Assembly (NCBI RefSeq): GCF_020523625.1
Contig: NZ_JAJAQH010000006.1
Coordinates: forward strand, 1-64,000
From: Methylovorus menthalis
GTDB taxonomy: Bacteria; Pseudomonadota; Gammaproteobacteria; Burkholderiales; Methylophilaceae
Direction: 5' to 3'
Length of the DNA: 64,000 nucleotides
This document shows, one piece after another, positions 3,733 to 20,972 of this stretch. The stretch's first letter is position 1, and each line of letters begins with the position of its first letter. The position numbers were made by a program, and so were the translations under genes. The notes below the pieces were generated by a model. That model saw nothing but the letters and a program-made list of their open reading frames with translations. It was not told the DNA's origin and ran no database searches.

Positions 3733-3818
3733 TTATGTAATAAACCCCAAGCTCTACAATGGCGCCAGCATCAAGCAATATCTACAAAAACAGATTAGCC
3801 AACTATGGGGAACGCCAA

Positions 3819-4415
3819 ATGTTTAACAATTTTTTCAAGGGTCTGATTACCAGCCTTGCCTTGCTGGCAAGTGTGGCCGCCAACGCTGCAACTGACACTT
3901 ACGGTAATTTGCTGGCGGGTTCTTTCACACCTTCCAGTTCCTTCGCAACGCTGACTTACAGCAATGTCGGTAACGTTTACACCTTCACATTGACTGCCAA
4001 TGACCTGAACAGCCTGTTCACTACCGATGCATTTATCGGTGCCATCGCTGTGGATTCATCTGTAACCCCAACCGTTTCGAATGTCACAGGCGACTCGCCA
4101 GTGAGTGTCGCTTCCGGTAAGGGCCCTGGTGGTGGTTTTGATTTCCGCTTTGATCTGACTGGCCCCAAGAATGCCCGCCTGACCTCAGGCGAAAGCGTTA
4201 CCTGGACTGCAACGTTTGCTAGTGCTAGCTCAGTTGAACTGAGCGCATCCTCGTTTGCGCTGCATGTGCAAGGCCTGACCAAGGCGCAGGGTGATAGCGC
4301 CTGGTACACCGCTGGCACGCCAGGCGTATCCGCCGTGCCTGAAGCTGACACCTACGCCATGATGGCACTGGGTCTGGGCCTGATGGGCTTTGTTGCTCGT
4401 CGCCGTCGCGCCTGA
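3819..4415 (+). CDS. PEP-CTERM sorting domain protein (198 aa)
   Basis: This is an exported protein with an N-terminal signal peptide (about 1-23, ending VAANA). The C-terminal tripartite sorting signal comprises VPEADTYAMM (the PEP-like motif, here PEA), a hydrophobic span and a terminal Arg cluster (RRRR). Such proteins are handled by the exosortase/PEP-CTERM system and usually end up at the cell surface or in exopolysaccharide. I chose the ATG at 3819 because GGGGAA lies six bases upstream and the signal peptide begins there. The frame is open further upstream to 3759. The central 150 residues are beta-rich and Ser/Thr-rich with no enzyme motif. A strong terminator follows. Confidence 0.85.
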   Translation: MFNNFFKGLITSLALLASVAANAATDTYGNLLAGSFTPSSSFATLTYSNVGNVYTFTLTANDLNSLFTTDAFIGAIAVDSSVTPTVSNVTGDSPVSVASGKGPGGGFDFRFDLTGPKNARLTSGESVTWTATFASASSVELSASSFALHVQGLTKAQGDSAWYTAGTPGVSAVPEADTYAMMALGLGLMGFVARRRRA

Positions 4416-4485: not shown

Positions 4486-6408
4486 TCAGGGCGCCACCCT
4501 GATCTGGTTCTTGCCACTGCGTTTGGCCTCGTACATGGCATTGTCGGCATCTTTCAGCAGGGCTTCTGGCAGTACATTGCTGGAGGGGGCGTAGTAAGCC
4601 AGCCCCAGGCTACAGCTGATGTGGCGTAGCAGGCCTCCCAGATTGATGGGGTCGCGCAGCAGGTGCAGGATTTTTTCGGCCACCAGTTGGGCGTGGGCTT
4701 GCGCTGGCATGTTTTCCAGCAGCACGACAAATTCATCGCCAGCAAAGCGGGCGACGGTGTCGGTTTGCCGTGTGGCGCTGCTCAATCGATTAGCAATTTC
4801 GCGCAGCAGCATGTCGCCAGCATCGTGGCCCAGCTCGTCGTTAATCTGCTTGAAGCCATCCAGATCAATAAACATCAGGGCCATCCACTGCTGGGTGCGG
4901 TCAGCGCGGGCCAGCGCCAGCGGCAATGCCTGGGTAAAAGCACGGCGGTTGGGCAGGCCGGTCAGTACATCATGCTTGGCTTCATTTTCCAGCAATTTTT
5001 GCAGGTGCTTGCGCTCGCTGATGTCAGTGAGAAAGGCGCTGAAGATATGCTTGCCATGCACCTCTATCTTGCTGATGCGTACTTCAATCGGGATGGTGCG
5101 GCCGTCCTTGCGTATGGCCTCCAGCTCCAGCCGTTTGCCGAGCACGGCGGCTTCGCCGGTATCCATGTGGTGCTGCATGCCATTGAGATGGGCCTGCCGC
5201 AGATGGGGCGGAATGATGACCTGGTCCAGGCGCTGGCCGATGGCTTCGCGTGCGGTCCAGCCAAAGGTGATTTCGGCCTGGCGGTTCCAGGCGGTGATAA
5301 CGCCGGCTTGATTGATGCTGATGTAAGCATCGTTGGCATTTTCGATCACCATGCTGATCTCAAGCTCGCGCTCTTTCAGTTCCTGCGCGGCGAGCGTTTG
5401 CTTGGCCATGGCGAATGACAGCATCTCATTGCTCTTGTTGAGCTCAAAGGTGCGCTGGGCAACGCGGTTTTCCAGCTCGTGCTGCAATTCGTGCAATGCC
5501 TGCTCGGCGACTTTAGTGGCATGAATGTCTTTGACGATGGAGACGAAGTACTCCAGTTCACCGCGCGGATTGAGCTGCTTGGTCACGCTCAGGCTCGCCC
5601 AGCGTAGCTCACCGTCCTTGCGTATGTAGCGCTTCTCGATCTGGTAGCGGTCAATTTTGTTTTCGACCAGCTGTTGAAGCAGATCAAGGTCAGCCTGCAA
5701 ATCATCAGGGCAGGTAATGTCCTTGAAACTGAGCAAATAAAGCTCATCGGCACGGTAGCCCAAAAAGCGGCACAGCTCTTCATTCACGCTCAGCCAGCCG
5801 CCATCGGGTGCCACCAGTGCTATACCAATGGCAGCCTTTTCAAAGATGGTGCGAAAGCGCGCCTCACTGGCATGCAGCACGGCTTGCGAGAGTTTGAGGT
5901 GCGATTCGGTCAGCGCTAGTGTTTCGCGCATGCGGATTTCCTTGCTGACGAGATCAGCCAGACAGATCAATATTTCCAGCTCGTGTTTGCTTAATTCGCG
6001 AGGATGCTCGTCGATAGCGCACAGGGTACCCAATGCGTAACCGCCCATGGTGCGGATGGGGATGCCTGCATAGAAGCGAATATGCGGGGATTGCTGCACC
6101 ATGGGGTTGTCGGCAAAGCGTTCGTCCAATAACGCATCTTCGACAACCAGGGGCGTTGTTTGTGTGATGGCATGGGCGCAAAAGGCAATGTCGCGTGGCG
6201 TTTCCTGTGCAGTCACGCCCACGCGTGACTTGAACCATTGCCGGTCACTATCCACGAGCGAAACAAGCGCAACAGGCACATTCAATGTCAGCGCAACGAG
6301 TTGCGTGATTCTGTCGAAGATGGGTTCTGGCTCAGAGTCCAGTAGCCCGAGGGCATGCAGCATGGTGATGCGTTCCGCTTCGTCCGGCGGCAAGGTGGCT
6401 GATTTCAT
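4486..6408 (-). CDS. GAF-PAS-PAS-GGDEF diguanylate cyclase (640 aa)
   Basis: A cytoplasmic c-di-GMP synthase that would join two GTP molecules. Domain order is GAF (about 20-165), PAS (about 185-305), a short coiled coil, a second PAS (about 350-470) and GGDEF (about 475-640). The catalytic loop reads AGDEF (556-560), a variant compatible with activity. An RQTD motif at 547-550, five residues upstream, matches the RxxD product-inhibition site. No membrane span is seen, so the input is presumably a cytosolic small molecule or redox signal sensed by GAF/PAS. The gene is monocistronic. It is separated from the lipid operon by about 50 nt and ends at a terminator. Confidence 0.92.
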   Translation of the reverse strand: MKSATLPPDEAERITMLHALGLLDSEPEPIFDRITQLVALTLNVPVALVSLVDSDRQWFKSRVGVTAQETPRDIAFCAHAITQTTPLVVEDALLDERFADNPMVQQSPHIRFYAGIPIRTMGGYALGTLCAIDEHPRELSKHELEILICLADLVSKEIRMRETLALTESHLKLSQAVLHASEARFRTIFEKAAIGIALVAPDGGWLSVNEELCRFLGYRADELYLLSFKDITCPDDLQADLDLLQQLVENKIDRYQIEKRYIRKDGELRWASLSVTKQLNPRGELEYFVSIVKDIHATKVAEQALHELQHELENRVAQRTFELNKSNEMLSFAMAKQTLAAQELKERELEISMVIENANDAYISINQAGVITAWNRQAEITFGWTAREAIGQRLDQVIIPPHLRQAHLNGMQHHMDTGEAAVLGKRLELEAIRKDGRTIPIEVRISKIEVHGKHIFSAFLTDISERKHLQKLLENEAKHDVLTGLPNRRAFTQALPLALARADRTQQWMALMFIDLDGFKQINDELGHDAGDMLLREIANRLSSATRQTDTVARFAGDEFVVLLENMPAQAHAQLVAEKILHLLRDPINLGGLLRHISCSLGLAYYAPSSNVLPEALLKDADNAMYEAKRSGKNQIRVAP

Positions 6409-6459: not shown

Positions 6460-7233
6460 TCAACCCTTATCTGGGGAGGGTTGCTGCTGTGGAGGAAACG
6501 TGGTGGTGTATTCCAGCAAGGCAATGCAAAAAGTAAGCCAGAGCAGGCCGGACATCAGGCCAGCCAGCACATCGCTGGCATAGTGGTAATGTAAAAACAC
6601 CCGGCTGCTGGCAATGGTGAATGCCAGAGAGCTGCCCAGCAGCAGGGCTGGCAGATGGTAACGTGAAGGCAGCAGGCGCATGACAAGGTAGGCCAGCAGG
6701 CCATACGTCACCAGCGAGCCGGAGCTGTGGCCACTTGGGAAGCTCCAGCTGTCTACCGGGGCACCATACGGGTTAATCGGGCGCAGGCGTTCAAATATAT
6801 CTTTCAGGCTGACATTGATCAGGCCATTGCCACCAATGGCCAGCAGGCTGCCCACGGCCAATTTGAACTGTCGCAGCCAAAGCATCAGCAATACTACCAG
6901 CACGCATATCACGGTGAGCGTCGAGGTATTGCCTAGATTCGTCACCAGGCGAAAGTACTGCATGGCGACGGGGCTGGCGTGTTTCCGCACGGTTTCGCTG
7001 AATTCGGCATCCGGCTGTATCAGGCTGCCGGTTTCCAGCAGATAGGCAATGCCGCAAAACACACCACCGGCCATGCTCATCAATAGCAGGCTGGTGATGA
7101 GCCAGCGTTTTTCAGAATCCGCACGCGAAAAGTGCGCCCGGTAAGCCAACGGCACAATCAGCCAAAGCGCCACCAGTCCCACCACATAATACTCAGCTGC
7201 GTATGTGGCAATGTGCATCCACCAGGTATTCAT
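6460..7233 (-). CDS. PAP2-family membrane phosphatase (257 aa)
   Basis: An integral membrane lipid phosphatase of the PAP2/acid phosphatase superfamily, likely acting on undecaprenyl pyrophosphate, phosphatidate or a related lipid. All three signature motifs are present: K144-x6-RP151-152, PSGH at 166-169, and SR210-211 followed by H217 and D221. About six transmembrane segments are predicted. It overlaps the upstream metallophosphoesterase gene by 4 nt (ATGA), so the two are translationally coupled, and with the lipid kinase further upstream they form a three-gene operon probably concerned with phospholipid or carrier-lipid turnover. The exact substrate cannot be read from sequence. Confidence 0.88.
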   Translation of the reverse strand: MNTWWMHIATYAAEYYVVGLVALWLIVPLAYRAHFSRADSEKRWLITSLLLMSMAGGVFCGIAYLLETGSLIQPDAEFSETVRKHASPVAMQYFRLVTNLGNTSTLTVICVLVVLLMLWLRQFKLAVGSLLAIGGNGLINVSLKDIFERLRPINPYGAPVDSWSFPSGHSSGSLVTYGLLAYLVMRLLPSRYHLPALLLGSSLAFTIASSRVFLHYHYASDVLAGLMSGLLWLTFCIALLEYTTTFPPQQQPSPDKG

Positions 7234-9168: not shown

Positions 9169-11424
9169 ATGGAAGTCATTACCAGTTTTTTCAGTACAGA
9201 TGGGTTTATGCCACATGGGCATTGTTACCTGTGGCAACCCCCCTTGCTCTGGACTTACATCATCTCCGATCTCATGATCGCCGTCGCCTATTATTCGATT
9301 CCCATGGCGCTGGTGTATTTCGTGCGCAAACGTTCCGATCTCCAGTTCGACTGGATCTTCGTGATGTTCTCCATCTTTATTTTTGCCTGCGGCACTACCC
9401 ATTTGTTGGGCTTGTGGACGATCTGGAACCCCGACTACTGGGCGGATGCCACGATGAAAGCCATCACGGGGGTGGCCTCGCTGGTGACCGCCGTCATGCT
9501 GTGGCGTTTGATGCCGCAAGCCTTGCGCCTGCCCAGCACACGTCAACTGGAAGAAACCGTGGAGCGGCTGGAACACGAGGTGGAAGAGCGCGAGCTGGCC
9601 GAACGCTCGCTGGCTGCTTTTAATGACACGCTGGAAAACCAGGTGCTGCAGCGCACATCCGAGCTGGAAGAAATCAACCGCCTGCTGAAGCTGGAAATTG
9701 AATTGCGGCGCGAAGCCGAGCAAACCCTTTATGCCGAGAAGCAGCGGGCAGTCGTGACCCTGCAATCCATCGGGGATGGGGTGATCACCACCGACAAGCA
9801 GTCGCGGGTGAATTACCTTAACCCGGTGGCTGAACGCATGACCGGCTGGAGCAATGCCGAAGCGCAGGGCAAGCCCCTGCTGGAAGTCTTCCGCATCGTC
9901 AATGAAAGTACGCGCAAGCTGGTCCCCAACCCGGTGGATGTGGTGCTGCAGCATGGCGAAATCTACGGGCTCGCCAACCACACGGCCCTGATCGGCCGCC
10001 ATGGCAATGAGTACGCCATTGAAGATTCTGCGGCGCCCATTCGCGATCAGGATGGCAATGTCCTCGGTGTGGTGCTGGTGTTTCATGATGTGAGCGAAGC
10101 CCGCAACATGGCCAACAAGATGACCTATCTGGCCGAGCATGATTACCTTACCGGCCTGCCCAATCGCTTACTACTGAATGACCGCCTGAATCAGGCGCTG
10201 ACCATCGCCCGGCGTGACCAGGAGTTCATCGCCCTGATGTTCCTGGATCTTGATCACTTCAAGAATGTCAACGACAGCCTGGGCCATGAGGTGGGGGACC
10301 AACTGCTGAAAATGGTGGCGCGTCGTCTGGAAAGCTGCCTGCGCGCCAGCGATACCATCAGCCGCCAGGGCGGAGATGAATTCATGATTCTGCTGCCCGA
10401 GCTGACCAATTACTTTTCACCCGCCGAGGTCGCCGAAAAACTGCTGGCCGCGGCCACCGTGCCTTATGAGGTAGGGACCCACGAAATCACCGTCTCCGTC
10501 AGTATCGGCATCGCGGTGTTCCCCGATGATGGGGAAAACGCTGAGCTGCTGACCAAAAATGCCGATGCCGCCATGTACCATGCCAAATCACTGGGGCGCA
10601 ATAATTACCAGTTCTTCACCCGCGCCATGAACGAGCGTGTGATGGAGATTGCCGAGCTGGAGAGCAAGCTGCGTCGCGCCGTGGAGCGTAACGAGTTTGT
10701 GCTGTATTACCAGCCCAAGATTGATATACGCACCGGCCAGGTGGTTGGCGCTGAAGCCCTGATCCGCTGGCAACATCCCAACTGGGGGCTGGTGGCACCT
10801 GATCGCTTTATCCCGATTGCCGAAGATAGCGGCCTGATCCGTCCGATAGGCTTATGGGTCATGCGCGAAGCCTGCCGCCAGAATCAGGCATGGCAAGCGG
10901 CTGGTCTCGCTCGCATTCCAGTGGCGGTGAATCTTTCCACCGTGCAGCTGCGCCAGCATAACTTCCTGCAAGAGGTCAGCGAGATCCTGCTCATGAGTGG
11001 TCTGGAGCCGGACTATCTGGAGCTGGAAGTCACCGAAAGTGTGGCGATCCATGCCGAAACCGAGGTGATCAACTGGCTGCACAAATTAAGAAGCATGGGC
11101 GTGAAACTGGCACTGGATGATTTTGGTACCGGCTACTCCAGTCTTTCTTACCTCAAGCGCCTGCCGATCAATAACGTCAAGATCGACAAGAGCTTCATCC
11201 GCGATATCGAGAGCGATCCCGACGATGCCACCATCATTACCGCCATCATCCGCATGTCACACGGCCTGCGCCTGAATGTGATCGCCGAAGGCGTGGAGAA
11301 TGTCAACCAGCTCGAATTCCTCAAGAAAGAAGGCTGCGACCAGATGCAAGGCTTCATCGCCAGCCGCCCGGTGCCCGCTGAAGAGTTTGCCTTGCTGTTA
11401 CAAAACTGGCCAACGGGTTCGTGA
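9169..11424 (+). CDS. ethylene-receptor-like sensor with PAS-GGDEF-EAL output (751 aa)
   Basis: A membrane-bound c-di-GMP enzyme with an unusual sensor. The N-terminal 120 residues form three spans that align with the plant ETR1 ethylene/copper-binding domain. ETR1 residues D25, Y32, P36, I62, C65 and H69 correspond here to D34, Y41, P45, I71, C74 and H78 at one constant offset of nine, with no gaps. A coiled coil (about 122-190), PAS (about 195-305), GGDEF (GGDEF at 401-405, inhibitory-site RASD at 392-395) and EAL (EALIRW from 529) follow. Both catalytic modules look intact, so it could make and/or break c-di-GMP in response to copper-bound ethylene or another small hydrophobic ligand. GGAG precedes the ATG. 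It is monocistronic. Confidence 0.9.
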   Translation: MEVITSFFSTDGFMPHGHCYLWQPPLLWTYIISDLMIAVAYYSIPMALVYFVRKRSDLQFDWIFVMFSIFIFACGTTHLLGLWTIWNPDYWADATMKAITGVASLVTAVMLWRLMPQALRLPSTRQLEETVERLEHEVEERELAERSLAAFNDTLENQVLQRTSELEEINRLLKLEIELRREAEQTLYAEKQRAVVTLQSIGDGVITTDKQSRVNYLNPVAERMTGWSNAEAQGKPLLEVFRIVNESTRKLVPNPVDVVLQHGEIYGLANHTALIGRHGNEYAIEDSAAPIRDQDGNVLGVVLVFHDVSEARNMANKMTYLAEHDYLTGLPNRLLLNDRLNQALTIARRDQEFIALMFLDLDHFKNVNDSLGHEVGDQLLKMVARRLESCLRASDTISRQGGDEFMILLPELTNYFSPAEVAEKLLAAATVPYEVGTHEITVSVSIGIAVFPDDGENAELLTKNADAAMYHAKSLGRNNYQFFTRAMNERVMEIAELESKLRRAVERNEFVLYYQPKIDIRTGQVVGAEALIRWQHPNWGLVAPDRFIPIAEDSGLIRPIGLWVMREACRQNQAWQAAGLARIPVAVNLSTVQLRQHNFLQEVSEILLMSGLEPDYLELEVTESVAIHAETEVINWLHKLRSMGVKLALDDFGTGYSSLSYLKRLPINNVKIDKSFIRDIESDPDDATIITAIIRMSHGLRLNVIAEGVENVNQLEFLKKEGCDQMQGFIASRPVPAEEFALLLQNWPTGS

Positions 11425-15190: not shown

Positions 15191-15658
15191 CTATAAAAAC
15201 ATGCGGCGCGCCTGCAGCTGGGTGGGTTGCCAGCCAAGATGCTGGTAATAGCCGACGGCGGGCGTGTTTTCAGTATCGACCAGGATTTGCGCACGGGTGA
15301 CGCCCTGATCCTTGCACCATTGCAATACGGCATCAATCAGGGTGCGGCCGATACCGGCATGGCGATAGTCCTTGTCTACGATCATGTCTTCCAGCCAGGC
15401 GGCGGGCGTGCCCTGGGCGGTGGAGATGATGAGCTGCGCGCTGACCATGCCGATCACCTTGCCTTCGGCCGTGCGTGCCACTTTGATCATGCCGCGATCC
15501 GGCGCTGCAATCAGCATGGCGAGTCCGCGCCGCTGGGCTTCGGTATCCGCTTCAAAATCAGCTTCTATGCCAAACAGGTCTTCCAGCAGCAGGCAAAGGG
15601 TGGGGATGTCGGCGGCGACGGCGTTATCAATGGTGATGCTGGTTTCTTGAAGCTGCAT
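15191..15658 (-). CDS. GNAT-family N-acetyltransferase (155 aa)
   Basis: A small acetyltransferase using acetyl-CoA. The acetyl-CoA-binding motif A is visible as DYRHAGIGRTLIDAVL (about 96-112, R/Q-x-x-G-x-G/A form), preceded by the beta4 strand WLEDMIVDK and followed by NTPAVGYYQHLGW near the C-terminus. It begins 2 nt after the stop of the XRE-cupin regulator gene, with its GGAGG ribosome site inside that gene's end, so the two form an operon. The acceptor is unknown. The link to the divergent methylamine operon suggests an amine, but this is inference only. Confidence 0.85.
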   Translation of the reverse strand: MQLQETSITIDNAVAADIPTLCLLLEDLFGIEADFEADTEAQRRGLAMLIAAPDRGMIKVARTAEGKVIGMVSAQLIISTAQGTPAAWLEDMIVDKDYRHAGIGRTLIDAVLQWCKDQGVTRAQILVDTENTPAVGYYQHLGWQPTQLQARRMFL

Positions 15659-15660
15659 GC

Positions 15661-16308
15661 CTATTCCTCCGGCGTGTCAGGGAAATCGTGATGGATGATG
15701 GAAAGAAACTTCACTGGCGCGCTCACCAGCCGCTCGGGCCGGTGTGGCTGCTCACCGCGAAACGTCAGCGAGTCGCCGGGCTGCAGCAGAAAGGTCTCAT
15801 TGCCCACTTTATATTCCACTTCGCCTTCCAGCATGTGAATGAACTCGGTGCCGCTGTGCTCGAAGGGCGGAAATTCCTCGCCCGGATCTTCCAGGGTAAT
15901 CAGGAAGGGCTCGAAGGTTTTTTTCGGGCCCTGATCATAGGCCAGCAGGTGGTAGGTGTGCCCACGTTTGGTGCCACGGCGCACCACTTCCATGCCCTGG
16001 CCGTGTTTCACCAGCTGGGCGCTGCTGGTCTGTACGTTGTAGTCGCGAAACAGCCTTGAGAGGGTCACGCCCAGCGCATTGGCAATCTGTTCCAGTGTTT
16101 CCAGGCTGGTGGACACCAGACCATTTTCTATCTTGCTCAACATGCCGCGGCTGATGCTGGCGCGCTCGGAAATATCCGCAATGGTCAGGCCATGTTGCAG
16201 GCGAATCTGCCGTATGACGTTGCCCAGATGGCGACCCAGCGACCTGGCGTCGCTGTCGCTCATCACCGGCGCAATGTCGGCGGAAGCAGTGTTGGATGGG
16301 GTTGCCAT
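15661..16308 (-). CDS. XRE-family regulator with C-terminal cupin (215 aa)
   Basis: A transcription factor with an HTH_3 DNA-binding domain (about 28-85, GLTIADISERASISRGMLSKIENG) and a cupin_2 sensor domain (about 135-208, PPFEHSGTEFIHMLEGEVEY and LQPGDSLTF). Relatives such as PuuR and SutR sense small metabolites and control amine or sulfur metabolism. It is divergent from mgdA across a 214-bp gap holding a perfect inverted repeat, so it is the obvious candidate regulator of the N-methylglutamate operon. That role is inferred from position. A GGAGAG ribosome site supports the chosen start. Confidence 0.9.
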   Translation of the reverse strand: MATPSNTASADIAPVMSDSDARSLGRHLGNVIRQIRLQHGLTIADISERASISRGMLSKIENGLVSTSLETLEQIANALGVTLSRLFRDYNVQTSSAQLVKHGQGMEVVRRGTKRGHTYHLLAYDQGPKKTFEPFLITLEDPGEEFPPFEHSGTEFIHMLEGEVEYKVGNETFLLQPGDSLTFRGEQPHRPERLVSAPVKFLSIIHHDFPDTPEE

Positions 16309-16406
16309 GGGCTCTCCGGGGTTGCAAATCAGGCTTCAGTGTACAAGAAAAAGAAGGGGCTAGCCACGATAAGTTTCCTGTGAAGAAAAAAAGTTGCAAA
16401 AAACTG

Positions 16407-16436
16407 TTGACGGCGAAATTCAGGGAATGCTTAAAT
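16407..16436 (+). promoter_or_regulatory. candidate sigma70 promoter for the mgd-gmaS-mgs operon
   Basis: TTGACG at 16407-16412 and TTAAAT at 16431-16436 with an 18-nt spacer give a plausible promoter about 85 nt upstream of mgdA. The start site is not proven. Confidence 0.4.
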
Positions 16437-16486
16437 AGCAACAAATGTTTCACCACAGTAAACAAAGTTATTAAACAGGAATATTT

Positions 16487-16511
16487 ATTGCTTATGTACA
16501 GCATAAGCAAT
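16487..16511 (+). promoter_or_regulatory. perfect 10-bp inverted repeat just upstream of mgdA
   Basis: ATTGCTTATG and CATAAGCAAT flank the 5-nt TACAG centre. The repeat ends one base before the GGAGA ribosome site of mgdA (start at 16523). It could be an operator for the divergent XRE-cupin regulator, or an RNA hairpin limiting access to the ribosome site. Confidence 0.55.
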
Positions 16512-16522
16512 GGAGACAATCG

Positions 16523-17764
16523 ATGCCCTTAAGACTGCTGAAATACGCCCTGAGCCGAAAGCACCCGGCCCCCCGCTTTTTCCGGGACTGTACCGAACCC
16601 AAGAAAAGCTATGACGCCGTGATTATTGGTGGTGGTGGCCACGGCCTGGCAGCGGCCTATTACCTGGCCAAGGACCATGGCATTACCAATGTGGCGGTGC
16701 TGGAAAAAGGCTATATCGGCGGCGGCAATACCGGCCGCAATACCACCATCGTGCGTTCCAATTACCTGACCCCTGAAGGCGTCAATTTTTACGACGCCAG
16801 CGTCAAGATATATGAAGGCTTGTCCGAAGAGCTGGACATCAACCTGTTCTATTCCACCCGCGGCCACTTCACCCTGGCGCATACCGAATCTGCCTTGCGC
16901 ACCATGCGCTGGCGTGCCGAGGTGAACAAGCATGTCGGCGTGGATAGTTATGTCGTCGGGCCGGACGAGATTTCCAAAGCCTGTCCACAGCTGGATATCA
17001 GCTGCAGCGGCAAGGCGCCGATTGTCGGGGCGCTGTACCACGGGCCAGGCTCGATTGCCCGTCACGATGCGGTAGCCTGGGGCTATGCCCGCGGTGCAGA
17101 CAGCATGGGCGTAGAAATTTTCCAGAATACTGAAGTCACCGGCCTCGACATCCAGTCCGGCAAGATCAAGGGCGTGCACACCAGCCGCGGCTATATCGCT
17201 ACCAACAAGGTGCTGTCAGCTGTGGCCGGGTTTACCCCCCGCATCACCAATATGGCCGGGGTTGATACCCCCATCGTCATTCATCCGCTGCAGGCATGTG
17301 TCAGCGAGCCGATGAAACCCTGGCTGGACACGATTCTTGTCTCTGGCAGTCTGCATGTGTATGTCAGCCAGTCCTCGCGCGGCGAGCTGGTCATGGGTTC
17401 TTCGCTCGATCCTTACGAAGTGCATTCCACGCGCTCTTCGCTGGATTTCGTCGAGGGCCTCACTTCGCACATGCTCGATATGTTCCCTTTCCTTTCCAAC
17501 GTGAAGATCGTGCGCCAGTGGGCAGGCATGGCGGATATGACGCCTGACTTCTCACCCATCATGGGCACGACGCCGGTAGAGGGCTTTTACCTGGATGCTG
17601 GCTGGGGTACCTGGGGCTTCAAGGCCACGCCGATCAGCGGCAAGACCATGGCTGCCACCATGGCCAATGACCAGGCTCCCGAACTGATCAAGCCCTTCCG
17701 CTTGAGCCGGTTTGAAGATTACGACCTGACAGGCGAAAAGGGCGCTGCTTCCGTCGGTCACTAG
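16523..17764 (+). CDS. mgdA: N-methylglutamate dehydrogenase subunit A, SoxB-like (413 aa)
   Basis: FAD-dependent subunit of heterotetrameric N-methylglutamate dehydrogenase, homologous to the beta subunit of sarcosine oxidase. It oxidises N-methylglutamate to glutamate, releasing the methyl carbon as formaldehyde or methylene-tetrahydrofolate. The dinucleotide motif GGGGHG lies at 36-41 and the covalent/FAD region RNTTIVRSNYL at about 73-83, with the conserved WAGMADMTPDFSPI and GWGTWGFKATP segments near the C-terminus. Length fits SoxB. It is the first gene of the eight-gene operon. GGAGA lies upstream. SoxB is the alternative, but the gmaS and mgsABC neighbours favour Mgd. Confidence 0.92.
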   Translation: MPLRLLKYALSRKHPAPRFFRDCTEPKKSYDAVIIGGGGHGLAAAYYLAKDHGITNVAVLEKGYIGGGNTGRNTTIVRSNYLTPEGVNFYDASVKIYEGLSEELDINLFYSTRGHFTLAHTESALRTMRWRAEVNKHVGVDSYVVGPDEISKACPQLDISCSGKAPIVGALYHGPGSIARHDAVAWGYARGADSMGVEIFQNTEVTGLDIQSGKIKGVHTSRGYIATNKVLSAVAGFTPRITNMAGVDTPIVIHPLQACVSEPMKPWLDTILVSGSLHVYVSQSSRGELVMGSSLDPYEVHSTRSSLDFVEGLTSHMLDMFPFLSNVKIVRQWAGMADMTPDFSPIMGTTPVEGFYLDAGWGTWGFKATPISGKTMAATMANDQAPELIKPFRLSRFEDYDLTGEKGAASVGH

Positions 17765-17811
17765 GCACGGACGCAGATTGTTTGGCGAATTGTTAAGTTA
17801 AGGATGCTGTT

Positions 17812-18075
17812 TTGAAATTACTGACTTGTCCCGTGAATGGAACCCGTCCCCTGAGTGAGTTTGTCTTCGGTGGCGAGATGCGCAACATGCCTGACCCCGC
17901 GCAGGCGAGCGATAGCGCCTGGGCCGCCTATGTGTACAACCGCACTGGTGCCCCCGGCCTGAAAAAGGAATGGTGGTTTCACAGCCCAAGCGGTACCTGG
18001 TTTGTGGCCGAGCGCAATACGCTGACCGATCAGGTGGCGCGTACCTATCTCTACGGCCAGGAGGACAAGGCATGA
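17812..18075 (+). CDS. mgdB: N-methylglutamate dehydrogenase subunit B, SoxD-like (87 aa)
   Basis: Small subunit equivalent to sarcosine oxidase delta. It starts with TTG at 17812 behind an AAGGA site and overlaps mgdC by 4 nt. The fold signature C-P-x-x-G-x-R-P, FGGE and WWFHSPSG is recognisable. In canonical SoxD a zinc is held by Cys6, Cys9, His59 and Cys63. Here Cys6 and the His (57) remain, but position 9 is Asn and the last Cys is replaced by Thr (62), so the zinc site is probably lost or altered. Length is close to the family norm. It is needed for complex assembly in the sarcosine oxidase system. Confidence 0.88.
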   Translation: MKLLTCPVNGTRPLSEFVFGGEMRNMPDPAQASDSAWAAYVYNRTGAPGLKKEWWFHSPSGTWFVAERNTLTDQVARTYLYGQEDKA

Positions 18076-20972
18076 GCAAGCGTTTACCTCAGCGTGCCAG
18101 TGAATGGCTGAAGCGCGACAAGCCCATCAGCTTTTATTTCGAAGGCCAGAAATACCAGGCCTATGAAGGCGACACCATCAGCAGTGCCCTGTGGGCCGCC
18201 GGTGAAACCGTGCTGGGTCGCAGTTTCAAATATCACCGTCCTCGCGGCGTGTTGAGCCTGGCCAATCATGACGTCAATGTCATGCTGGCCGATGGCACCG
18301 ATACCAATATGCGCGGCGATGTATTGCCGGTGCAGGATGGCATGCAGCTGACCGTGGTGAATACCGATGGCGGTGTGAAGAACGACAAGAAGCGCTTTAT
18401 TGATGCGATTTCATCGATATTGCCAGTGGGCTTTTATTACAAGGCTTTCCATACGCCACGCAGTCTGTTCCCTTTCTGGGAAAACATCATCCGCAAGTCG
18501 GCAGGCCTGGGCGTAGTCAATTTTAACTACCCACGTGATCTCAAGCGCAAGCTGCATACGCATTGCGATCTCTTGATCATCGGCGCTGGCCCTACAGGGC
18601 TCACCGCTGCGCTGATGGCGGCTCCGCACGGCCTCAATATCATCGTGGTGGATGAAAATGCACAAGCGGGTGGTAGCCTGAGCTATGACATGGGCGGCTC
18701 CGACGAGTCGGCCAAGCGTCTCGCCGAGCTGCTGGCCGAGCTGGCCAAATATCCTAATGTCACGCTGCGCACGGGTGGCTATGCCGCCGGGTATTACACC
18801 GATCATCTGATTCCAATTGTGGAAACCACCGGCATTACCAAGGTGCGCGCCAAAGCCGTGATCGTGGCCAGTGGTGCCTTTGAGCAGCCTCCCGTATTCC
18901 GCAATAACGATTTGCCCGGCGTGATGCTGGCGACTGCCGCACAACGCCTGCTGGCCCGCTACGCCACCAAGCCATGCGAAAGCGCCGTCGTATTTGCCGC
19001 CAACAAGCAAGGCTACCGTGCCGCCATGGATTTGCTGGATGCCGGTGTGACCGTCAAGGCGATTGTCGACCTGCGTGCTGAGGGTGAACCTTGCAGCCTG
19101 GTGGATGCAATCAAGAGCCGTGGCGTAGCCATCTACAACGGTGCCTGTGTGTATGAAGTGCTGCCTGCGGCCAACAAGTTTGGCGTCAAGGGTGCGGTGA
19201 TCTGCAGTTATGACGAAGCCAGCGCCAAGCCGCTGCTGCATGACCGCTTCACCATCGCTTGCGATGGCATCATCATGAGTGCAGGCTGGGCACCGGCCGC
19301 CGCCTTGCTATACCAGGCTGGCACCGCCATGCGCTATGAAAAGTCTGCCGAGCAGTTTGTACCTGCCAAGCTGCCTGCCGGCATGTTTGCCGCGGGCAAG
19401 GTGAATGGCATTTTTGATCTGGCGCAACGTTTGCAGGACGGCGCCCGCGCTGCTTCCGAAGCGCTGGCCTACCTGGGTAAGCAAGTGCCCACCGTCACCG
19501 TGGACCGCGACTACATCGCCAGCCCCAGCCATCCTTACCCCATGGTGGAGCATCCCAAAGGCAAGAATTTTGTCGACTTTGACGAAGACATCAGCATCAA
19601 GGATTTTGTGCATGCCGCGCAGGAAGGCTTTGACAATATCGAGCTGATGAAGCGTTTTACCACCGTCGGCATGGGCCCCAGCCAGGGCAAACATTCCAAT
19701 ATGAATGCCATCCGTATCCTGGCGCGCATTCGCCAATTGCCGGTGGAGCGCATTGGCACCACGACCGCGCGTCCGTTCTTCCACCCAACGCCGATTGGGC
19801 ACCTGGCCGGCCGTGGTTTGCATCCGCATCGCCTGACCACGCTGCATGGCTGGCACGAAGCGCATGGCGCCGAGTTTACCGATGTGGGCGTTTGGCAGCG
19901 TCCGGCCTGGTATCGCCGCGCCGGTCTGGAAAAACAACAGGCCATTTACGAAGAAGCGCTGGCCGTGCGCAAGGCCGCCGGCATGATTGATGTGGGCACG
20001 CTGGGCAAGCTGGAAGTGCGCGGCCCCGATGCGGCGGAATTCCTGGAGCGCTTTTACACCGGGTCTTTCAAGACGCAGAAGATTGGCCGCACTCGTTATG
20101 CCCTGTTGCTGGACGAAGCCGGTGTGATGGTAGACGACGGCATTGCCTGTCGCATTGCCGAGGATTATTTCTACATCACCGCCAGCACCACTAACGCGGC
20201 TGCCGTCTACCGTGAAATGCAGCGCTGGCTGCAGATCTGGCAACTGGATGTCGGTCTGGTGAATGTCACCGGTGCTTATGGTGGCATCAACCTGGCAGGC
20301 CCGGCTGCGCGCGGCATTCTGTCCAAACTCACCTTGCGTCCGCTGGACGATGCCAGCCTGCCATTTGGCGCGGTATGCGATACCGAGATTGCCGGGGTTC
20401 CGGCCCGCCTCATCCGCGTGGGCTTTGTGTCTGACCTCGCATTTGAAATGCATGTGCCTGCCGGCAGCACCCAGCATGTGTGGAATGCCCTGCTGGAAAA
20501 CGGCGTGGCTGAGGGCTTGCGTCCTTTTGGTACCGATACCCAGCGGCTGTTGCGTCTGGAGATGGGCAATCACCTGATCGGTCAGGACACCGATGGCCTG
20601 ACCCAGCCGTTTGAAGCAGGCAGCGATGGTGCGATCCAGTTTGCCAAGCCCTTCTTCATCGGTCAGCGCAGCTTGCAGATCATCGCCCGCAAGCCGCTCA
20701 ACAAGCGTCTGGTGCCATTCACTTTATCCGAAGGCTATCAGGGCGAGACCATCAACGAATGCAATCTGGTGATAGGCACTGACGGCAATATCAAGGGCCG
20801 CGTCACCAGCATCGCCTTCAGCCCCACGGTCGGCCGCTTTATCGGCTTTGCCTATGTAGACCCGGCCAATGTCGCCGAGGGCGCTGCCTTCAATATCCGC
20901 ACAGATAGCGGCAGTCTGGTCATGGCCCGTGTTGCGGCCACGCCATTCGTTCAACTGCAATCGGAAGCCTGA
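18072..20972 (+). CDS. mgdC: N-methylglutamate dehydrogenase subunit C, SoxA-like (966 aa)
   Basis: The large subunit, homologous to sarcosine oxidase alpha. N-terminal residues about 20-105 form a 2Fe-2S-ferredoxin-like module (YEGDTISSALWAAG, GRSFKYHRPRG) that lacks an obvious cluster-ligand Cys pair. A Rossmann NAD/FAD module follows with GAGPTG at 171-176. The C-terminal third (about 590-960) is a GcvT-like, folate-binding aminomethyltransferase domain, consistent with passing the methyl carbon to tetrahydrofolate. The ATG at 18072 overlaps the mgdB stop. The same frame is open upstream to 17970, but the family N-terminus starts at MSKR. mgdD begins 2 nt downstream. Confidence 0.93.
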   Translation: MSKRLPQRASEWLKRDKPISFYFEGQKYQAYEGDTISSALWAAGETVLGRSFKYHRPRGVLSLANHDVNVMLADGTDTNMRGDVLPVQDGMQLTVVNTDGGVKNDKKRFIDAISSILPVGFYYKAFHTPRSLFPFWENIIRKSAGLGVVNFNYPRDLKRKLHTHCDLLIIGAGPTGLTAALMAAPHGLNIIVVDENAQAGGSLSYDMGGSDESAKRLAELLAELAKYPNVTLRTGGYAAGYYTDHLIPIVETTGITKVRAKAVIVASGAFEQPPVFRNNDLPGVMLATAAQRLLARYATKPCESAVVFAANKQGYRAAMDLLDAGVTVKAIVDLRAEGEPCSLVDAIKSRGVAIYNGACVYEVLPAANKFGVKGAVICSYDEASAKPLLHDRFTIACDGIIMSAGWAPAAALLYQAGTAMRYEKSAEQFVPAKLPAGMFAAGKVNGIFDLAQRLQDGARAASEALAYLGKQVPTVTVDRDYIASPSHPYPMVEHPKGKNFVDFDEDISIKDFVHAAQEGFDNIELMKRFTTVGMGPSQGKHSNMNAIRILARIRQLPVERIGTTTARPFFHPTPIGHLAGRGLHPHRLTTLHGWHEAHGAEFTDVGVWQRPAWYRRAGLEKQQAIYEEALAVRKAAGMIDVGTLGKLEVRGPDAAEFLERFYTGSFKTQKIGRTRYALLLDEAGVMVDDGIACRIAEDYFYITASTTNAAAVYREMQRWLQIWQLDVGLVNVTGAYGGINLAGPAARGILSKLTLRPLDDASLPFGAVCDTEIAGVPARLIRVGFVSDLAFEMHVPAGSTQHVWNALLENGVAEGLRPFGTDTQRLLRLEMGNHLIGQDTDGLTQPFEAGSDGAIQFAKPFFIGQRSLQIIARKPLNKRLVPFTLSEGYQGETINECNLVIGTDGNIKGRVTSIAFSPTVGRFIGFAYVDPANVAEGAAFNIRTDSGSLVMARVAATPFVQLQSEA

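Follow-up and report, generated by a model that had tools for sequence, protein, structure and literature searches.

A predicted ethylene receptor joined to c-di-GMP enzymes in a single protein of Methylovorus menthalis

One gene in the 64,000-nucleotide stretch of the Methylovorus menthalis genome analysed here (contig NZ_JAJAQH010000006.1, positions 1 to 64,000; hereafter the window) encodes an ethylene-binding-type membrane domain and c-di-GMP enzymes in the same chain, and we read its product, with a probability of roughly 0.6, as a one-protein Cu(I)-dependent receptor for ethylene, or a similar olefin, that sets c-di-GMP. The identity of the domain, the presence of every residue needed in ETR1, the motifs of both enzymes and the family-wide architecture are directly supported. 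Bacterial ethylene receptor signalling is largely obscure, and the union of sensor and enzymes in one polypeptide means that ethylene input and enzymatic output could both be assayed in one membrane preparation; if the reading is true, the protein would be a kinase-free ethylene receptor and would let methylotrophs couple c-di-GMP to a gas from plants or soil. Ethylene-domain proteins of bacteria are already known to have diverse outputs, and the ETR1_N Pfam family is established; the window protein is a variant of these. The text of a 2020 review describes bacterial homologues with varied outputs and does not name a GGDEF-EAL fusion (PMC7700396), and no description of an ethylene-domain/GGDEF-EAL fusion in methylotrophs was found in a literature search that covered mainly open-access papers.

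The reading frame is open throughout from 9169 to 11424 on the forward strand (751 aa), and the parts of the protein described below lie on the same strand: an ethylene-binding-type membrane domain, a helical linker, a PAS domain, a GGDEF domain and an EAL domain, as placed by the open reading frame and Pfam. An earlier sequence-only reading had called the N-terminus ethylene-receptor-like and named a profile search as the check; that search bore the claim out, with ETR1_N (PF25487) matching residues 26–121 (9244–9531) at 139.2 bits against a cut-off of 27 (E 5.5e-41; profile positions 2–97 of 97). The match is not due to chance: it exceeds the curated threshold by about 112 bits, all three genomes of the genus have the domain, and 39 of 41 dereplicated bacterial domains keep C74 and as many keep H78. 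The linker (residues 122–190; 9532–9738) is coiled-coil-like by eye and helical in an AlphaFold2 model from residue 124 to 148, the modelled end. Pfam found all three domains of the PAS-GGDEF-EAL output that the same reading had proposed, and the motifs that it listed are intact: the PAS domain spans residues 195–310 (9751–10098), with its Pfam match at 197–308, the GGDEF domain residues 322–479 (10132–10605), with GGDEF at 401–405 and the inhibitory-site RxxD motif (RASD) at 392–395, and the EAL domain residues 500–734 (10666–11370), with EAL at 529–531. The further GGDEF-domain residues D360 and N368-D369, which include the metal aspartate, are in place. The EAL domain has its full customary set of metal and catalytic residues (E529, N588, E623, D650, D651, K671, E707, E710 and Q727), and the residues of both domains are also conserved in orthologues. 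Among solved structures, Pseudomonas aeruginosa RbdA (5xgb) covers nearly the whole PAS-GGDEF-EAL half at 329 bits, and the closest relative of that half is MucR of the same species (5m3c; 478 bits). RbdA and MucR share a PAS-GGDEF-EAL or GGDEF-EAL output half with the window protein and carry a membrane sensor ahead of it, but their sensor domains are of types other than the ethylene type, that of MucR being an MHYT domain.

Ethylene binding by ETR1 requires seven residues (D25, Y32, I35, P36, I62, C65 and H69), of which C65 and H69 are the copper ligands. All seven are present in the window protein, as D34, Y41, I44 and P45 in helix 1 (9268–9303) and I71, C74 and H78 in helix 2 (9379–9402). 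Six of these had been listed by the sequence-only reading, each at the position where we find it; I44 (ETR1 I35) and K97 (9457–9459; ETR1 K91 and AzoEtr1 K98), the latter a proposed salt-bridge partner of the helix-1 aspartate with a role in receptor output, are two further equivalents. The constant offset from ETR1 numbering that had been noted for those six residues holds over helices 1 and 2 and fails in helix 3, which is shifted by three residues, a shift that follows from the published numbering of AzoEtr1, where K98 equals ETR1 K91 (PMC11819568). Conservation was assessed in 41 dereplicated bacterial homologues retrieved by the Pfam profile, whose start lies beyond the N-terminal motif discussed below; D34 is kept in 39, Y41 in 38, I44 in 37, P45 in 36, I71 in 38, C74 in 39, H78 in 39 and K97 in 36. 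The motif P-H-G-x-C-x-x-W (residues 15–22, PHGHCYLW in the window protein; 9211–9234), identified in the alignment of bacterial homologues directly before helix 1, is nearly invariant in them, 39 of the 41 having H16 and 39 having C19; lying just outside helix 1, it may contribute to the metal site or to access to that site. Plant receptors have two disulphide-forming N-terminal cysteines, and a single cysteine has been noted in this region in cyanobacteria (PMC6682694). Two divergent relatives (L133 and L134, in genomes G275 and G258) keep the helix-2 cysteine and have arginine for the histidine, phenylalanine for the tyrosine and alanine for the proline; they are probably not ethylene binders.

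The AlphaFold2 model covers residues 1–149 and was built from 56 sequences; it has a mean pLDDT of 87.5 and contains three long helices (24–54, 61–86 and 90–119), the predicted membrane helices of the domain. With the periplasmic end of the helices assigned by the positive-inside rule, D34, H78, C74 and K97 lie 10, 8, 12 and 7 residues, respectively, from that putative end, so counted in residues alone they stand at a similar level, 7–12 residues from the same helix end. A search of solved structures with the sensor domain returned no sequence relative and no meaningful fold match (best E 1.2).

The closest tested relative found is AzoEtr1 of Azospirillum brasilense. A protein search of plasmid records located an ethylene-type domain on plasmid ABSP7_p1 of A. 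brasilense Sp7, in a frame of 525 aa that begins MFGG and carries D35, C75, H79 and K98; we identify this frame as AzoEtr1 because its start, residue numbers and 525-aa length agree with those published (PMC11819568). The window protein is 50.8% identical to it over 120 residues without a gap (tblastn), and D35, C75, H79 and K98 of AzoEtr1 correspond to D34, C74, H78 and K97 of the window protein, each one position on. The two proteins are alike in the N-terminal domain, the seven binding residues, the lysine and the PHGxC motif (PHGVC in AzoEtr1), whereas AzoEtr1 has a PAS-histidine kinase output with a separate response regulator and the window protein has its c-di-GMP enzymes in the same chain. 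Residues 1–130 of AzoEtr1 bind 14C-ethylene in yeast, and disruption of the gene abolishes binding by cells; A. brasilense responds to 100 ppb ethylene, and its c-di-GMP falls on exposure, by a route from AzoEtr1 that is still open (PMC11819568). This likeness is the strongest evidence from which we infer that the window domain would bind ethylene, and an ethylene/Cu(I) input is likely, since a domain about 51% identical to it binds ethylene and since c-di-GMP in Azospirillum is lowered by ethylene. Two other characterized receptors were compared: SynEtr1 (slr1212) of Synechocystis PCC 6803 is likewise a bacterial protein in which an ethylene-binding domain acts on attachment and movement, but its output is a cyanobacteriochrome with a histidine kinase and it is a light sensor too (PMC6682694), while Arabidopsis ETR1, which has all seven ethylene-binding residues, differs in its GAF-histidine kinase-receiver output and in having two N-terminal cysteines, which form a disulphide, where bacteria have PHGxC (PMC6682694).

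An alternative interpretation is that the domain binds Cu(I) but in nature responds to copper itself, CO, oxygen or redox state, with ethylene acting as a surrogate ligand. The copper ligands are indeed conserved better than any ecological link to plants, and the additional near-invariant H16 and C19 outside helix 1 could join in metal binding. Moreover, copper-mediated sensing of diatomic gases has been proposed for MHYT-GGDEF-EAL proteins, among them MucR, to which the output half is closest among solved structures. We give this alternative serious weight but consider it rather unlikely, as the other five ETR1 ethylene-binding residues are kept in addition to the copper ligands, and AzoEtr1, with the same residue set including PHGVC, binds ethylene in a host that responds to 100 ppb (PMC11819568).

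Under the preferred reading, that of an ethylene receptor, the three-helix N-terminal domain would be an inner-membrane domain with a periplasmic N-terminus, in which the helix-2 residues C74 and H78 would hold a Cu(I) that the helix-1 residue D34 positions. Binding of ethylene, or of another olefin as small, at this Cu(I) would disturb the D34–K97 pair together with helix 3; from there the signal would travel via the helical linker and the PAS domain of a presumed dimer to the GGDEF-EAL tandem and alter the ratio of c-di-GMP synthesis to hydrolysis and, with it, that of attachment to motility. Ethylene would more probably favour net hydrolysis than net synthesis, given that it lowered c-di-GMP in the AzoEtr1-bearing Azospirillum.

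The same architecture recurs in the family. Full-length orthologues of 745–755 aa were found in other genera of the Methylophilaceae (L018, L019, L020, L023, L036, L038, L040 and L050), with identities to the window protein of 60–66% in the ethylene domain, 62–73% in GGDEF and 59–67% in EAL, and both remaining genomes of the genus have intact copies that are 91–100% identical by domain. By these comparisons, the PAS-GGDEF-EAL ethylene-domain architecture is an old gene of the family. The identities also bear on the idea that the domain is a mere membrane anchor or dimerizer and that the tandem is actually driven through its PAS domain or by GTP at the GGDEF domain, in the manner of RbdA, a protein whose match to nearly all of the output half speaks for such control; many GGDEF-EAL tandems are regulated via PAS or GTP. 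We consider this improbable because the intramembrane D, Y, I, P, C and H residues, needless for an anchor alone, are nearly invariant and because the ethylene domain has diverged between genera no faster than the two enzyme domains. It is more improbable still, to the point that we hardly credit it, that the gene is a decaying relic in the genus: relatives include a stop-interrupted copy in Methylophilus sp. Leaf416 and a broken ethylene domain in genome G491, but the gene is intact in the window and in two more genomes of the genus, with the catalytic and binding residues all kept. The Leaf416 copy (L035), from a named leaf isolate, has its in-frame stop at 7024–7026, inside the GGDEF region, and the downstream frame remains uninterrupted, which points to a recent loss or to an error in sequencing.

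A profile search found the ethylene domain in 32 of 187 Methylophilaceae genomes, including all three of the window's genus, and in 29 of 398 genomes of a Pseudomonadota sample. This patchy distribution in the family, the two of 26 family copies that look broken (Leaf416 and G491), the lack of a solved structural relative of the sensor and the absence of an ACC deaminase match in the genome count against the ethylene-receptor reading. Outputs were classified from the full genes of nearly all matches. In the Methylophilaceae, 26 of 33 ethylene-domain proteins carry GGDEF, namely 21 with GGDEF-EAL (including G491, the ethylene domain of which is broken), four with GGDEF but no EAL and the Leaf416 copy with its internal stop; by our search four others are histidine kinases, and the last three comprise one HD-GYP-like protein (PF13487), one HisKA_2-type kinase by Pfam and a third that is alike by eye. 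Among other Pseudomonadota, none of 30 ethylene-domain proteins carries GGDEF or EAL, a skew between the family and the rest for which Fisher's exact test, ignoring relatedness, gives p = 1.2e-11. The skew may be due in part to a GGDEF-rich genome supplying fusion partners: profile searches of the 2.9-Mb window genome found 41 GGDEF domains versus 31 HATPase_c domains, together with 31 EAL domains and one ethylene-type domain. A broader proposal, which we put forward tentatively and at somewhat less than even odds, is that the Methylophilaceae have repeatedly wired the ethylene domain into c-di-GMP turnover, making ethylene or another olefin a direct, one-step biofilm and motility signal through a kinase-free receptor; its basis is that GGDEF or GGDEF-EAL outputs occur in three lineages of the ethylene domain and an HD-GYP-like output in one protein. 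That last protein (L193, in genome G574; 379 aa) consists of an ethylene-type domain and an HD domain matching PF13487 with the HD-GYP-like motif HDIGK...HHERLDGTGYP, and is putatively a third type of c-di-GMP enzyme on an ethylene-type sensor.

Besides the window's own set, the family contains two sets of proteins with ethylene domains of other lineages, one of 836 aa (for example, L197) and one of 473 aa with GGDEF only (L022, with L024 and L029). A single c-di-GMP fusion event on the family's ethylene-domain tree was rejected by the AU test (p = 0.0013 for groups A+B, 0.0011 for A+C and 0.0003 for B+C), whereas group A, the window's own set, was not rejected as a clade (p = 0.31); these values come from about 130 columns with long branches, and the groups were named after the first tree had been seen. 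Outside the Methylophilaceae, two EBD-PAS-GGDEF-EAL proteins occur among the named loci, L047 from a Myxococcota metagenome-assembled genome and L097 from Aphanothece. They have the same order of domain types as the window protein, but their output halves are only about 28–43% identical to its own, and for this reason the two fusions were probably joined separately.

The gene stands alone, with a divergent upstream neighbour and a downstream neighbour on the other strand. No conserved partner gene was found at the loci of relatives, where neighbours vary with genus, as is expected of a one-component system. Neighbours at Methylophilus-type loci are by eye housekeeping genes (exoribonuclease-like, RNA methyltransferase-like and MazG-like), and the L023 locus is syntenic with that of Methylophilus sp. 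Leaf416 (77% DNA identity over 4.6 kb). No match pointing to phage carriage of the gene was found. The sequence-only reading had supposed a methylotroph that gains from sensing ethylene on plant surfaces or in soil; a methylotroph it is, of the Methylophilaceae, but the plant-surface rationale fared less well, as carriers include pond and other metagenome genomes and the sole named leaf isolate, Leaf416, has the interrupted copy. ACC deaminase, sought as a link to plant ethylene, gave no match in the window genome, so it provides no independent link to ethylene.

Other genes in the window include a second GGDEF protein (4486–6408, reverse strand), the N-terminal part of which is GAF/PAS-like by eye and which also lies near the ethylene-domain gene in both other genomes of the genus. 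Genes for GNAT and cupin-type regulator proteins lie beside sarcosine-oxidase-like subunits (16523–17764 and 17970–20972) in a region, 15191–20972, that is possibly an N-methylglutamate pathway for methylamine use. An exported protein is encoded at 3759–4415 (forward strand), and its C-terminal end, VPEADTYAMMALGLGLMGFVARRRRA, resembles a PEP-CTERM sorting signal.
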